Source: a virus
DNA length: 27,082 bases
IMG/VR virus record: IMGVR_UViG_3300005613_000343
Span: 1 to 27,082 of that record
Strand: one strand, 5' to 3'
A program made the translations under genes and the position numbers. This document shows positions 1,858 through 23,608 of the stretch, in pieces; positions within the stretch are counted from its first letter, which is position 1, and every line of letters begins with the position of its first letter. Under the pieces are notes generated by a model that worked only from the letters and a program-made list of their open reading frames with translations, searched no databases and was not told the DNA's origin.

Positions 1858-2309
1858 TGAGTTGGATTGACAATATCAATAAGCAGTTAGAAAAAAATCG
1901 TGAGTCCCTTCGTAAGAAGGGCTACGATGATAAAAAACTCGCAGAACAACATCGTGGTGAAACACAAGGTAAAGTAAACGCCCAATCTGGCCATATGGAT
2001 ACCATTCGTCATATTGGTGCTCCTTTAGGTGGTAAAATTGCCGGTACAATCCAAGGCTCTAAACAATATGTGTGTCCTAATTGTGGAGATAGTGGTAATA
2101 GTAATGCTTGGAAGGGAAAACACTTTGACAATTGTATTGGTAAGGTTTATCAGTACGACAAAGTTACGAAAGAGCTGGTAGGGATTTATTCATCTACAAA
2201 AGAAGCTATTGAGACTAATGGTAACATTTGGAAAAGACAATTAATCAACAATGTAATCATAGATAAGAAGAAATCAGCTTATGGTTTTATTTGGGAGAGA
2301 AAACTTTAA
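1857..2309 (+). CDS. Zinc-finger and NUMOD1-type DNA-binding protein
   Basis: This 150-residue protein carries one zinc-binding motif, CPNC at 73-76 with HFDNC ending at 93 (C73, C76, H89, C93). This form is known from phage homing endonucleases. Residues about 96-147 match a NUMOD1 module: VYQYD, then YSSTKEAIE, then a final GFIWE. The N-terminal 70 residues are basic and Gly-rich, with a GGKIAG stretch. No GIY-YIG, HNH or other nuclease motif is visible, so it looks like the DNA-binding half of a homing endonuclease, kept alone. It ends the AAA+ operon and could guide that ATPase to DNA or act as a regulator (inference). Confidence 0.7.
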   Translation: MSWIDNINKQLEKNRESLRKKGYDDKKLAEQHRGETQGKVNAQSGHMDTIRHIGAPLGGKIAGTIQGSKQYVCPNCGDSGNSNAWKGKHFDNCIGKVYQYDKVTKELVGIYSSTKEAIETNGNIWKRQLINNVIIDKKKSAYGFIWERKL

Positions 2310-2317
2310 TTAAAAGT

Positions 2318-2392
2318 TTAACAATTTTTTAACATTGCAAGTTTGGTGGACTGAAAAATAATGCGTATCTTTACATAGTAATGATGAGGGTG
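2318..2392 (+). repeat. Duplicated promoter cassette, copy 2
   Basis: Second copy of the 75-bp cassette at 683-757, ungapped and about 83% identical. The changes gather in the spacer and the -7 box, while the AT-rich upstream block and the post-start GAGGGTG are kept. Confidence 0.85.
2342..2373 (+). promoter_or_regulatory. Bacteroidetes-type promoter for three small genes
   Basis: TTTG at 2342-2345, a 20-base spacer and TATCTTTA at 2366-2373 match the -33/-7 consensus except for the last base. The leader to the ATG at 2438 is about 55-60 bases and contains GAGG (2386-2389) and a CCTCCTC run, which could pair. Confidence 0.7.
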
Positions 2393-2437
2393 TGTTCTCC
2401 TCCTCGTCAAAGTGAGAACGAAACTGAAAAATAAAAA

Positions 2438-2710
2438 ATGAAAAATTTAAAAAACAAAAATGTTGAGGTGTCTTTTGAGAAAACACCAGAGTATTATCAT
2501 GAGCAAGGATTTCGTATCTTTTGGAAAGACAAACCATCAGATGTATTTGATACTTACGCAGAACGAACAAAGGTCTACAAACGAGAATCCAAGTGGATAC
2601 CTTGTTGGGAGGAGATTGTAAAGTCTTTCAATGATAAAACAACACCAAATGATATTGGTAAGATTGTAAGTAAGTATGGTGTATCTTATGGATTTTATTT
2701 AGCAGGATAA
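2438..2710 (+). CDS. Hypothetical early protein (90 aa)
   Basis: A 90-residue soluble, basic protein rich in Lys, Tyr and Trp. No family recognised. Its C-terminal part (IGKIVSKYGVSYGF) loosely resembles a segment of the next protein (VKELSDKYGIGHTM), so the two may be distant relatives; this is weak. It is first in a three-gene early operon driven by the second cassette promoter and follows an A-rich leader without a clear Shine-Dalgarno sequence, which is common in Bacteroidetes. Confidence 0.7.
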   Translation: MKNLKNKNVEVSFEKTPEYYHEQGFRIFWKDKPSDVFDTYAERTKVYKRESKWIPCWEEIVKSFNDKTTPNDIGKIVSKYGVSYGFYLAG

Positions 2711-2714
2711 TAAT

Positions 2715-2918
2715 ATGAGTGATAGTATGGTAAATTACAAAGGTAAACAAGTAGAGTTTGGAACACTACCAAAGAACGAACAAAAATATCGATGGGCATT
2801 GTTTATTGAGAGTGATGGTTATGAGAAACGATTAACCAACAAACGAGTAAAAGAGTTATCAGATAAGTATGGTATAGGGCATACTATGGAATATATAAAA
2901 AATTCAAATAAAAAGTAA
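2715..2918 (+). CDS. Hypothetical early protein (67 aa)
   Basis: A 67-residue, Lys-rich soluble protein with no recognised domain. It starts five bases after the previous stop and ends one base before the next ATG, as in a tight operon. The segment RVKELSDKYGIGH could be a short helical DNA- or protein-binding unit, but nothing proves it. The small size and early position suit a host-takeover factor. Confidence 0.65.
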   Translation: MSDSMVNYKGKQVEFGTLPKNEQKYRWALFIESDGYEKRLTNKRVKELSDKYGIGHTMEYIKNSNKK

Positions 2919-2919
2919 A

Positions 2920-3249
2920 ATGAAAAAAGAAGACCAAGAATGGGTAGACGAAACCCTACAAGAAGCACTTTGGGAAGGTAAAAGAAAAAGTTTTAATGAA
3001 GTTTGGAATTTTGACTACCACCCATCTCCAAGATTAGTTGAAAGAGAAGATATTATAGAAGCTAAAGAAGTCTTATTAGATGTATTTAATGATTGGTTAG
3101 CATATCAAGAACATATGATACCCTATGTGTATGGTGAACAAGATAATATTGACGATTTCTTAGATACTTTCACACCTTCAGCACAAGTATTGCTATTTGC
3201 AGATTACCTAAATGGATGGGCTGAGGGTCATTGTAGACCTTCAAAATAA
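2920..3249 (+). CDS. Hypothetical acidic early protein (109 aa)
   Basis: A 109-residue acidic protein, largely helical by appearance, with many Trp, Glu and Asp residues and a single Cys near the end (GHCRPSK). No known motif. It is the last gene of the early operon; the next 400 bases hold no gene. Acidic early phage proteins sometimes mimic DNA or bind host enzymes, but there is no direct sign of that here. Confidence 0.65.
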   Translation: MKKEDQEWVDETLQEALWEGKRKSFNEVWNFDYHPSPRLVEREDIIEAKEVLLDVFNDWLAYQEHMIPYVYGEQDNIDDFLDTFTPSAQVLLFADYLNGWAEGHCRPSK

Positions 3250-3309
3250 CCTAACTCCAGCGTCTCTCTACTTCGGGAAAGGGTGGGGACTAAAAAAGTT
3301 TAAAAATAA

Positions 3310-3341
3310 TTTGGAAATTTAAAAATAAAGTCGTATATTTG
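3310..3341 (+). promoter_or_regulatory. Consensus Bacteroidetes promoter before a gene-free stretch
   Basis: TTTG at 3310-3313, exactly 20 bases, then TATATTTG at 3334-3341: a full match at both boxes and the best promoter in the window. The bases before the -7 box (AAGTCG) are also found before the -7 box at 731. No start codon with a useful reading frame follows; the predicted transcript covers the structured region up to the terminator at 3590. Confidence 0.8.
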
Positions 3342-3345
3342 TAAT

Positions 3346-3590
3346 ATATTGTTTCAAAAGGGATTGAGGGAGTGGCAATTTTTAGATTTTGTATTATATG
3401 TTGTAACGCCACTCCCGACATCCTACCAACTTTAGAAAGAGATTATATAATAATAATGTAAGGGGAGTTATTCAGACTTTTTTCCGTTTATTACTTTCTA
3501 TTGTTATTCACCTTACACAATCGGGGTTACTGCCATTACCCTGTTCTCCGAACCCTCAGTCTAATTCCTGGTACTGGGGGTTCTTTTTTT
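3346..3590 (+). ncRNA. Candidate structured noncoding RNA, ~245 nt
   Basis: This stretch lies between a consensus promoter and a strong terminator and has no reading frame (its ATGs meet stops almost at once). Visible structure: GGGAGTGGC (3368-3376) pairs perfectly with GCCACTCCC (3408-3416). It stacks through a symmetric 3x3 internal loop with a tandem G-A/A-G arrangement on GGGAT/ATCCT (3360-3364 with 3420-3424). TAGAAAG (3433-3439) can pair with CTTTCTA (3494-3500), and TGTAAGG (3457-3463) with CCTTACA (3511-3517); their order would make a pseudoknot, or they may be alternatives. CGGGGT/ACCCTG (3522-3527 with 3538-3543) is a further hairpin before the terminator. I do not recognise a known RNA family. 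It could instead be an attenuating leader, but a new promoter-like box follows the terminator. Confidence 0.6.
3550..3590 (+). terminator. Strong rho-independent terminator of the RNA unit
   Basis: GAACCCTCAGT (3550-3560) pairs with ACTGGGGGTTC (3573-3583) over 11 base pairs with one G-U pair, a 12-base loop and seven T (3584-3590). It is the best intrinsic terminator in the window. Confidence 0.9.
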
Positions 3591-3605
3591 ATGCATACAA
3601 TCAAA

Positions 3606-3627
3606 TATTAGTAATGTACATATAATA
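3606..3627 (+). promoter_or_regulatory. Possible late promoter before the tail genes
   Basis: TATTAGT (3606-3612), five bases, then ACATATAATA (3618-3627), about 20 bases before the tail chaperone ATG. The same two blocks recur with a six-base gap before the protease gene (12137-12159). It does not fit the host TAnnTTTG type, so a phage sigma-like factor could read it. The sequence is AT-rich, so chance is a real alternative. Confidence 0.35.
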
Positions 3628-3646
3628 TAGTATAAGAGGAAATATT

Positions 3647-4399
3647 ATGGGTAAGAAGAAAATAAGCGTAGAAGTGCCTGATTACTTTAGTGTAAAACAC
3701 TACAAGTCTATGGGTCAATACGAACATCAAGAAGAGCTGGATAAAATCGTTTCGGTGGTAGTCGCTACTACTGAACATTCAGAAGAAGAGGTAATGGAAT
3801 GGGCATTACCTGACCTTGTATCTATATACAAAGGTATAAGTGGAATACTTAATGACATAACACCTACATTCTACCCAGTGTTTGAATTCAAAGGTGTAAA
3901 TTATGGATTCCAACCTTTATCCAAGATGAGTGTCGGTGAGTGGATTGACTTATCAAGTAGAATGGAAGACCCTATAAAGAATATGGAAGCGATTCTATCA
4001 ATCTTATATAGACCCATTACGGAAAGCAAATTCGATGGGCTAGAGTGGAAGACTAAATCATACATTAAAACCCTTGTAGGTAAAGCAGAATCGTTGTTTA
4101 AGTACTATAAGATAGAAGAGTATGATTCAGAGAAAAGAGAGTGGAGAGAAGAGATATTCCAAGACCTACCAATTGAGTACGCATTAGGTTGTTATAGTTT
4201 TTTTTTGACTTTTACTCTAATGTTGGAAAAAGATATTCTGTCTTATTCGGAGATAGCGGAAGAGCTGAAGATGGAGATGATGAGGGAGATAGACGACGCA
4301 ATAACGGGCCTACAATCCAACAACACTATGGATGGTTATTCATATTACGAAACGTGGAAACAGGAAAGCTCCTCGACATTACGGGAGCAAAAACAATAA
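3647..4399 (+). CDS. Tail assembly chaperone, short form
   Basis: A 250-residue soluble protein resembling the tail-assembly chaperones of Bacteroidetes and marine phages. It has a globular helical core with FEFKGVNYGF, then GEWIDLSSRM (about residues 100-110), then ILYRPI. It stands at the head of the tail module, where lambda-type phages place gpG. Residues 184-188 are encoded by nine T in a row (4198-4206), containing the slippery heptamer T TTT TTT in the correct phase. The -1 frame is open from exactly there to the stop at 4512, after an in-frame TAG at 4195-4197. A -1 slip would give a fusion of about 288 residues, as with lambda G/GT. The start has AAGAGG upstream. The chaperone call rests on pattern and position. 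Confidence 0.6.
   Translation: MGKKKISVEVPDYFSVKHYKSMGQYEHQEELDKIVSVVVATTEHSEEEVMEWALPDLVSIYKGISGILNDITPTFYPVFEFKGVNYGFQPLSKMSVGEWIDLSSRMEDPIKNMEAILSILYRPITESKFDGLEWKTKSYIKTLVGKAESLFKYYKIEEYDSEKREWREEIFQDLPIEYALGCYSFFLTFTLMLEKDILSYSEIAEELKMEMMREIDDAITGLQSNNTMDGYSYYETWKQESSSTLREQKQ
4198..4206 (+). other. Putative -1 ribosomal frameshift site (T9)
   Basis: In the zero frame the codons are AGT TTT TTT TTG, so 4198-4204 is a canonical X XXY YYZ heptamer of T only. The -1 frame has TAG just before it (4195-4197) and is then open for 102-105 codons to TGA at 4510-4512. Its later part reads sensibly (HYGWLFILRNVETGKLLDI) and runs in frame into the 37-residue ORF at 4399. No obvious strong stem follows the site. 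Confidence 0.55.
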
Positions 4400-16747: not shown

Positions 16748-16756
16748 TATTTATAT

Positions 16757-16797
16757 AATAGTATGATGGGGGGGATTATTCCCCCCCTTCTACTATT
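16757..16797 (+). other. G7/C7 RNA hairpin between virion genes
   Basis: Seven G (16768-16774), a six-base loop ATTATT, and seven C (16781-16787), inside an outer stem AATAGTA (16757-16763) with TACTATT (16791-16797). The two stems are joined by a small asymmetric internal loop. No T run follows, so it is not a classical terminator. It is striking in such AT-rich DNA and could protect or process the capsid-gene mRNA. Confidence 0.7.
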
Positions 16798-22927: not shown

Positions 22928-23089
22928 AGAATCCAAAAGTAAAATTTAGGAGATACAAATAGGTGGCTTAATTCCCAATTGAATCTTCTACTATATTATA
23001 TGTCAGAAAAAAAAGTTGGTCTAATTTATCGTTTATTTCGGTTTTTACATATTTATATGTATAACCCAAAGTAAAAATAAGGAGACAAA
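22928..23089 (+). other. Gap before the sigma-like gene
   Basis: Together with the terminators this makes a 298-base gene-free stretch. It contains the palindrome ACATAT-TT-ATATGT at 23047-23060, TATATTATATGTC near 22991-23003, and AAGGAG (23079-23084) as ribosome-binding site. No clear TAnnTTTG promoter is visible, though one should exist for the sigma-like gene, as the terminators lie upstream. Confidence 0.45.
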
Positions 23090-23095
23090 TTGGAC

Positions 23096-23608
23096 ATGAA
23101 TTCATACCTACAAGAGAATTGGAAGCAAATCCGTAAAAAAGTTCAAGCAGTAACAAGAGGGCATCAGAATACTGATGACTTACTAAGTGACTTAGTGATG
23201 GTTTTATTAGAGAAACCTAAAGAATATCAAATGAGCTTATTAGAAAACAATAAGGTCCACCATTGGTTCACCTCATCAGCTCAACTACAATTTAAATCTA
23301 AAACATCGCCATTTTGGTACAAGTATAAGAAGTTTCAATCTGATACTACTGAGATTAAAGATTGGTTAATTTACTATGATGAAGAGCAAGAAGATGTTAA
23401 GGAAGAAATCATTGAATTTATCAAGAAAGAGTTAGACCTATATAATATATATGAGAGGACACTTGCTATCGAGCATATTCTTGGTGGGCAATCTTATTCA
23501 GAGATTGGTAGAGAATATGGTATCAATCGTAGATACATAAGTGAAACAGTAACTCCTGTCAAAGAAGAAATATTTAATAAAGTGAGGTCAAAATGGAAGA
23601 ATTTTTAG
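23096..23608 (+). CDS. Sigma-factor-like transcription regulator
   Basis: A 170-residue protein resembling small sigma-70-type factors. Residues about 15-60 (NTDDLLSDLVMVLLEKP) fit the region-2 helices that bind core polymerase and the -10 box. Residues about 120-165 (ERTLAIEHILGGQSYSEIG, then REYGINRRYISETV) fit a region-4 helix-turn-helix. The acidic middle links them. It is the likely switch to late genes. An in-frame TTG at 23090 sits closer to AAGGAG (5 bases) than the ATG at 23096 (11 bases), so the start is uncertain by two residues. It heads the packaging operon and overlaps the next gene by 16 bases. Confidence 0.65.
   Translation: MNSYLQENWKQIRKKVQAVTRGHQNTDDLLSDLVMVLLEKPKEYQMSLLENNKVHHWFTSSAQLQFKSKTSPFWYKYKKFQSDTTEIKDWLIYYDEEQEDVKEEIIEFIKKELDLYNIYERTLAIEHILGGQSYSEIGREYGINRRYISETVTPVKEEIFNKVRSKWKNF

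Follow-up and report, generated by a model that had tools for sequence, protein, structure and literature searches.

A promoter-to-terminator unit without a gene as a candidate bipartite noncoding RNA of a phage

Does a stretch of phage DNA that runs from a promoter to a terminator with no gene in between make an RNA with a role of its own, or is it what a lost gene has left behind? The locus considered here lies in a virus record of 27,082 bases, which was analysed in full and is called the window; it has genes for a portal and of head and tail type, and its right end holds a terminase gene. A reading made from the sequence alone (the sequence-only reading) had proposed that this place makes a phage RNA which contains no gene and has a start and a stop of its own, and the promoter and terminator that we predict, together with the conservation and covariation of the unit in related phages, uphold that proposal.

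Promoter, hairpins and terminator in the window

The features on which the argument rests are the following.

3310-3341, plus strand: host-type (Bacteroidetes sigma-A) promoter, TTTG-N20-TATATTTG
3346-3590, plus strand: predicted full transcript of ~245 nt without an ORF, predicted start at ~3346
3360-3423, plus strand: hairpin P1, with compensatory changes in relatives
3423-3457, plus strand: phage-type promoter-like motif, ctaccaac-N11-attatataataataat, just before P2
3458-3516, plus strand: hairpin P2, GTAAGG/CCTTAC, with compensatory changes in relatives; predicted 5' end of a short RNA
3522-3543, plus strand: hairpin P3, CGGGGT/ACCCTG; a stem stands here in all six lineages, with unrelated sequences
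3550-3590, plus strand: intrinsic terminator P4, an 11-bp stem followed by T7 (hairpin 3550-3583)
3598-3634, plus strand: phage-type promoter motif, caatcaaa-N13-catataatatagtata, before the tail operon
3647-4399, plus strand: 250-aa gene, conserved anchor downstream of the unit
23096-23608, plus strand: sigma-factor-like protein (phrog_1740, RNA polymerase sigma factor, E 3.5e-5)

The promoter conforms to the Bacteroidetes -33/-7 consensus, in which the start site lies 4-5 nt beyond (PMC6847099), with TTTG at 3310-3313 and the second block at 3334-3341. With either strand scanned, it was the only full match to this consensus in the window, where 0.28 full matches are expected per shuffled strand, in agreement with its earlier description as the best host-type promoter; compared with the E. 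coli consensus it has 9 of 12 matches and is one of many such in the window. Early transcription, which had also been proposed, would fit a promoter of this type. Between 3250 and 3646 the plus strand holds no ORF of at least 40 aa, so the ~245 bases described as free of reading frames are indeed free on that strand, and a single 43-aa ORF on the minus strand (3290-3421) overlaps the unit. The terminator was recovered as well, although our first terminator scan missed it because the P4 loop exceeds the limit of 8 used there. A terminator stands at the place of P4 in all the relatives with the unit, in ORF-bearing and ORF-less forms.

The whole unit folds with a z of -2.9, 1 of 200 shuffles being equally good. 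P1 consists of an outer GGAT/ATCC stem, a 3x3 TGA/GAC internal loop, the 9-bp stem GGGAGTGGC/GCCACTCCC (3368-3376/3408-3416) and an AU-rich loop, which is the extended hairpin that the sequence-only reading described, and its folding is stronger than that of shuffled sequences (z -3.4 when the promoters define the boundaries). Segments cut at the stems gave -4.0 for P1 and -4.7 for P4, values that are optimistic because of the way in which the segments were cut. P2 and P3 together, taken from the window alone, were no better than shuffles (z -0.9), and the support for these two hairpins is therefore comparative. Two 7-bp helices in pseudoknot order had been described in addition. One of them, TGTAAGG/CCTTACA, is the conserved P2; the other, TAGAAAG/CTTTCTA, is at chance level (p about 0.35), has no counterpart in the relatives and was rejected.

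Just upstream of the host-type promoter, at 3258-3292 on the plus strand, lies a conserved hairpin with a CTTCGG loop and without a T run, which also occurs in relatives (for example CCCTCTCCCTACTTCGGTGAGGTGGGGGC in L157). It is perhaps the 3' end of the upstream operon.

The unit and its inner ORF in related phages

Relatives were gathered from the capsid, the terminase and the 250-aa gene, and the region upstream of the 250-aa gene was compared among them. They are metagenomic IMG/VR contigs and one contig of a MAG named Muriicola (Flavobacteriaceae). A Bacteroidetes host, as judged from the sequence, would be compatible with the promoter type, bearing in mind that MAG bins may contain stray viral contigs. 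Besides the window, six relatives carry the RNA unit, five of them IMG/VR contigs (L150/L151, L153, L094, L154 and L156) and one a flavobacterial MAG contig (L205). Common to all carriers is the series of host-type promoter, P1, P2, P3 and terminator P4, and its position is constant, before the 250-aa gene that opens the tail operon (the L094 contig ends before that gene). L153 and L094 were counted as one lineage for the RNA, giving six lineages in total, the window included. An extra hairpin, P0, stands between the promoter and P1 in L153, L094, L154, L156 and L205; the window is without it.

In a tree of the 250-aa protein the unit is limited to one clade, two members of which (L152 and L155) are without it. 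In farther relatives the 250-aa gene comes immediately after the terminase, or accessory genes of other kinds lie in between. L157, L160 and L161, which have HNH genes with a 3' hairpin and a terminator and show no clear P1, were excluded from the core family. Searched with the 250-aa protein, genome contigs yielded L205, a MAG contig that has the unit, and L206, a fragment; searched with the capsid, they yielded nothing. When about 400 genomes of the family and about 400 of the class were sampled, the 250-aa profile gained two weak matches, and the ~148-aa ORF described below appeared only in L205's own genome. Isolated phages, searched by DNA and with the 250-aa and ~148-aa proteins, yielded no homologue of the unit; their DNA matches were promoter-like only, as in Riemerella and Flavobacterium phages.

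Among the carriers P1, P2 and, where it is present, P0 differ in sequence and stay paired through compensatory changes. In the tabulated pairs, whose arms were picked by eye and among which there is no non-standard pair, both sides had changed in 7 of the 9 columns of P1, 4 of 10 in P0 and 2 of 6 in P2, with none broken. The P0 arms AGCTCTC/GAGAGCT, AGTTCTC/GAGAGCT and AGTCATC/GATGACT all pair, both sides being changed in 3 of 7 columns, and P2 occurs as GTAAGG/CCTTAC, GTAGGG/CCCTAC and ATAGGG/CCCTAT. The arms of P1 and P3 are not alignable base by base across the most distant relatives. RNAalifold, run on its own alignment, recovered the P1, inner P0 and P2 stems, with 3 and 2 doubly changed pairs, and did not report the outer P0 stem, where MAFFT had placed a gap. 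When promoters, ORF starts and terminators defined the boundaries, z ranged from -3.4 to -5.6 for the 5' domain of every lineage and from -2.1 to -4.8 for the 3' domain of five, the exception being the window; control tiles of the window averaged -0.2, one of them being as low as -3.8.

Most relatives have an ORF between P1 and P2. In L150 this encodes an HNH endonuclease (HNH_3), in L153, L154 and L205 a protein of ~148 aa, and in L094 a distant relative of the latter. The L153 copy of the ~148-aa protein had no significant match in Pfam, and its predicted structure is of low confidence (pLDDT 54). Since the RNA flanks of L153 and L094 are 98.8% and 98.5% identical and their inner ORF proteins 27%, the ORF has been exchanged as a cassette. 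The window and L156 lack it altogether, with clean junctions and no visible remnant. In the tree, L156 falls inside the ~148-aa group and the window elsewhere, which means either two or more separate origins of the ORF-less state or more than one entry of the ORF.

Upstream of the unit the window has an HNH endonuclease with a NUMOD4-like start (215-679) and an AAA ATPase at the family cut-off (979-1857), and in L094 the stretch 2270-3250 contains small accessory genes, several of them after near-repeated promoter-like stretches (GTTTGGAAATACAAAATATATTTCGTACTTTAG). A leader motif, CCAAAAGTAAAA..AGGAG, recurs before ORFs, in the leaders of L153, L094 and L205 and at 23066 in the window, in contrast with the report that Bacteroidetes lack Shine-Dalgarno sequences (PMC6847099).

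A second promoter motif and a sigma-like protein

A matrix of two blocks, trained on what precedes the 250-aa gene in 20 relatives (the window was left out), describes the motif (CAATCAAC or ATACCAAC)-N11-13-AATATAATATAGTATA. It precedes the 250-aa gene in all 20 training relatives, those without the RNA unit included, and the best instance in the window (score 23.1, at 3619) is the one before the tail operon. We call this putative phage-type promoter late because of its position before structural genes.

A weaker instance of the motif, a candidate promoter and probably a late one, stands just before P2. Its score of 11.5 falls within what shuffled windows yield (their best scores average 13.7 and reach 21.1) and is insignificant alone, so the evidence for it is its recurrence before P2 in the five unit-bearing genomes scanned, where it ranks second (L153 and L203, the contig of L156), third (the window and L091) or fourth (L102). 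The sigma-factor-like protein is a candidate reader of these promoters, and the unit therewith offers a candidate phage promoter class together with a candidate sigma factor.

What the RNA may be and do

The reading that we favour, with a probability of about 0.55, is that the unit is transcribed independently in the phage and yields a structured noncoding RNA in two parts, a small RNA of the 3'UTR type that has outlived its ORF. Transcription by host RNA polymerase would begin at about 3346, pass through P1, P2 and P3 and end at P4, and later in infection the phage-type promoter before P2 would also make the 3' half alone, an RNA of ~130 nt (3458-3590). The layout of the unit, its conservation, its compensatory changes and the absence and exchange of the ORF come directly from the comparison of sequences, from which we infer transcription from both promoters and its timing in two phases. 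In the relatives the two halves of the RNA flank an exchangeable ORF, so that the 5' half is there a leader with structure and the 3' half a 3'UTR equipped with a candidate promoter, the arrangement known from 3'UTR-type small RNAs. Since the RNA persists in the window without an ORF, it, and above all its 3' half, is likely to have a function of its own. The most likely mode of action would be base pairing with mRNA through the loops, which we put forward tentatively and at less than even odds. Because forms with and without the inner gene occur naturally, a gene-independent function of the RNA is directly testable.

Small RNAs derived from 3'UTRs and having an internal promoter are exemplified by MicX of Vibrio cholerae (PMC9438474). 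The unit resembles them in its predicted promoter at the 3' end of a coding unit, shared intrinsic terminator and length of ~130 nt, and it ends at that terminator, P4, both downstream of the ORF and in the ORF-less forms. It lies 3' of an ORF in L150, L153, L154, L094 and L205. In the window and in L156 no ORF stands upstream, and for this reason the window element is not filed as a 3'UTR-derived small RNA; it may work like one. Unlike MicX, the unit is phage-borne, and its RNA stays whether the ORF is replaced or absent. Phage noncoding RNAs and 3'UTR small RNAs are already known, and a noncoding RNA that encloses a replaceable ORF, and outlasts it, adds a variant to these; few structured RNAs seem to have been catalogued from flavobacterial phages. 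A search of Rfam 15 at the gathering threshold, with the window and its relatives, reached no family, sub-threshold matches being far below gathering, and a search for tRNA and tmRNA found none. In a thin search of the literature on phage small RNAs, 3'UTR small RNAs and structured RNAs of Bacteroidetes, no title or abstract described such a unit.

The alternative that survives best, though we consider it rather unlikely, is that the unit is a leftover accessory-gene cassette, the leader and trailer of a lost ORF, without an independent function in the window phage. Most relatives do have an ORF here, the window is without P0 and its P2 and P3 are weak by folding energy. Against this, the window's P1 is perfect even though its end branch is long (0.51 changes per site), the promoter and the terminator are intact, and the junctions are clean. 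L156, also without an ORF, keeps P0, P1, P2 and P3, and its P2 is 94% identical to that of the ORF-bearing L154, compared with 74% for the neighbouring 250-aa gene. It is chiefly this conservation across forms with and without the ORF that makes us think the RNA is maintained for its own sake, although the likeness could also come from a recent exchange of the RNA segment. "Moron" cassettes with their own promoter and terminator are similarly autonomous units, and the unit shares with them a place in an accessory region near the terminase and an exchangeable ORF, HNH endonucleases included. It differs from them in the conserved, covarying RNA on both sides, which is maintained in the ORF-less forms.

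We also think it unlikely that the structures only serve expression of the inner ORF, through translation control in the leader and protection of the 3' end. P0 and P1 do stand directly before the ORF start in most relatives, and in an antisense search P3 matched the start region of the inner ORF, which in L154 was the best of 46 start regions (shuffle p 0.001) and in L153 scored more weakly (p 0.02). The pairing fails in L094, L205 and L150, thus holding in two of five relatives, and is therefore not a general mechanism; moreover, the structures persist where there is no ORF. Compared with the phage genes at large, the loops had no consistent antisense target. A regulator of phage mRNA, which the sequence-only reading had also suggested, may nevertheless be what the RNA is, the P3 pairing being the one antisense match obtained.

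Control in cis of the tail operon, with nascent P2 and P3 making polymerase read through P4, appears improbable. The unit is like HK022 put RNA (PMC9378689) and the lambda late leader in its order of promoter, hairpins, terminator and phage operon, here a late operon, an order found in all the unit-bearing relatives; P2 lies at the very 5' end of the predicted phage-type transcript, and its internal sequence is conserved in L153, L154 and L156. Unlike in those systems, a separate and stronger phage-type motif follows P4, before the first tail gene, and does so also in relatives without the RNA, which makes read-through unnecessary. The size and sequence of P3, besides, vary.

A long shot would be an RNA shell, in which two covarying domains hold a swapped ORF, the late 3' RNA made with the phage sigma factor silences the early ORF via its start codon, and the RNA is kept for a job of its own in phages that no longer have the ORF. 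The regulator of host RNA polymerase that the sequence-only reading had suggested can practically be set aside: a 6S-like RNA would agree with a host-type promoter, a small, discrete predicted RNA and host polymerase as the proposed partner, but the folds show no long terminal stem with the central bubble that defines 6S RNA, and Rfam gave no 6S match.

Returning to the preferred reading of a stand-alone noncoding RNA unit, we observed a second candidate of this kind at 23030-22873, on the minus strand, with a phage-type motif (score 19.2), ~115 nt and a terminator (13-bp stem, T5). L014, L091, L093, L022, L097 and L098 have a comparable unit, upstream of the sigma-like gene and in antisense, and in L034 it is inverted. 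In the window, the best predicted pairing of the unit with a start region is with the leader of the adjacent sigma-like gene (-25.5 kcal/mol), which is also the best in L091, and not in L093 or L022. Finally, at 16753-16790 in the window, between two structural genes, the motif ATATAATAGTATG is followed by a G7/C7 hairpin.
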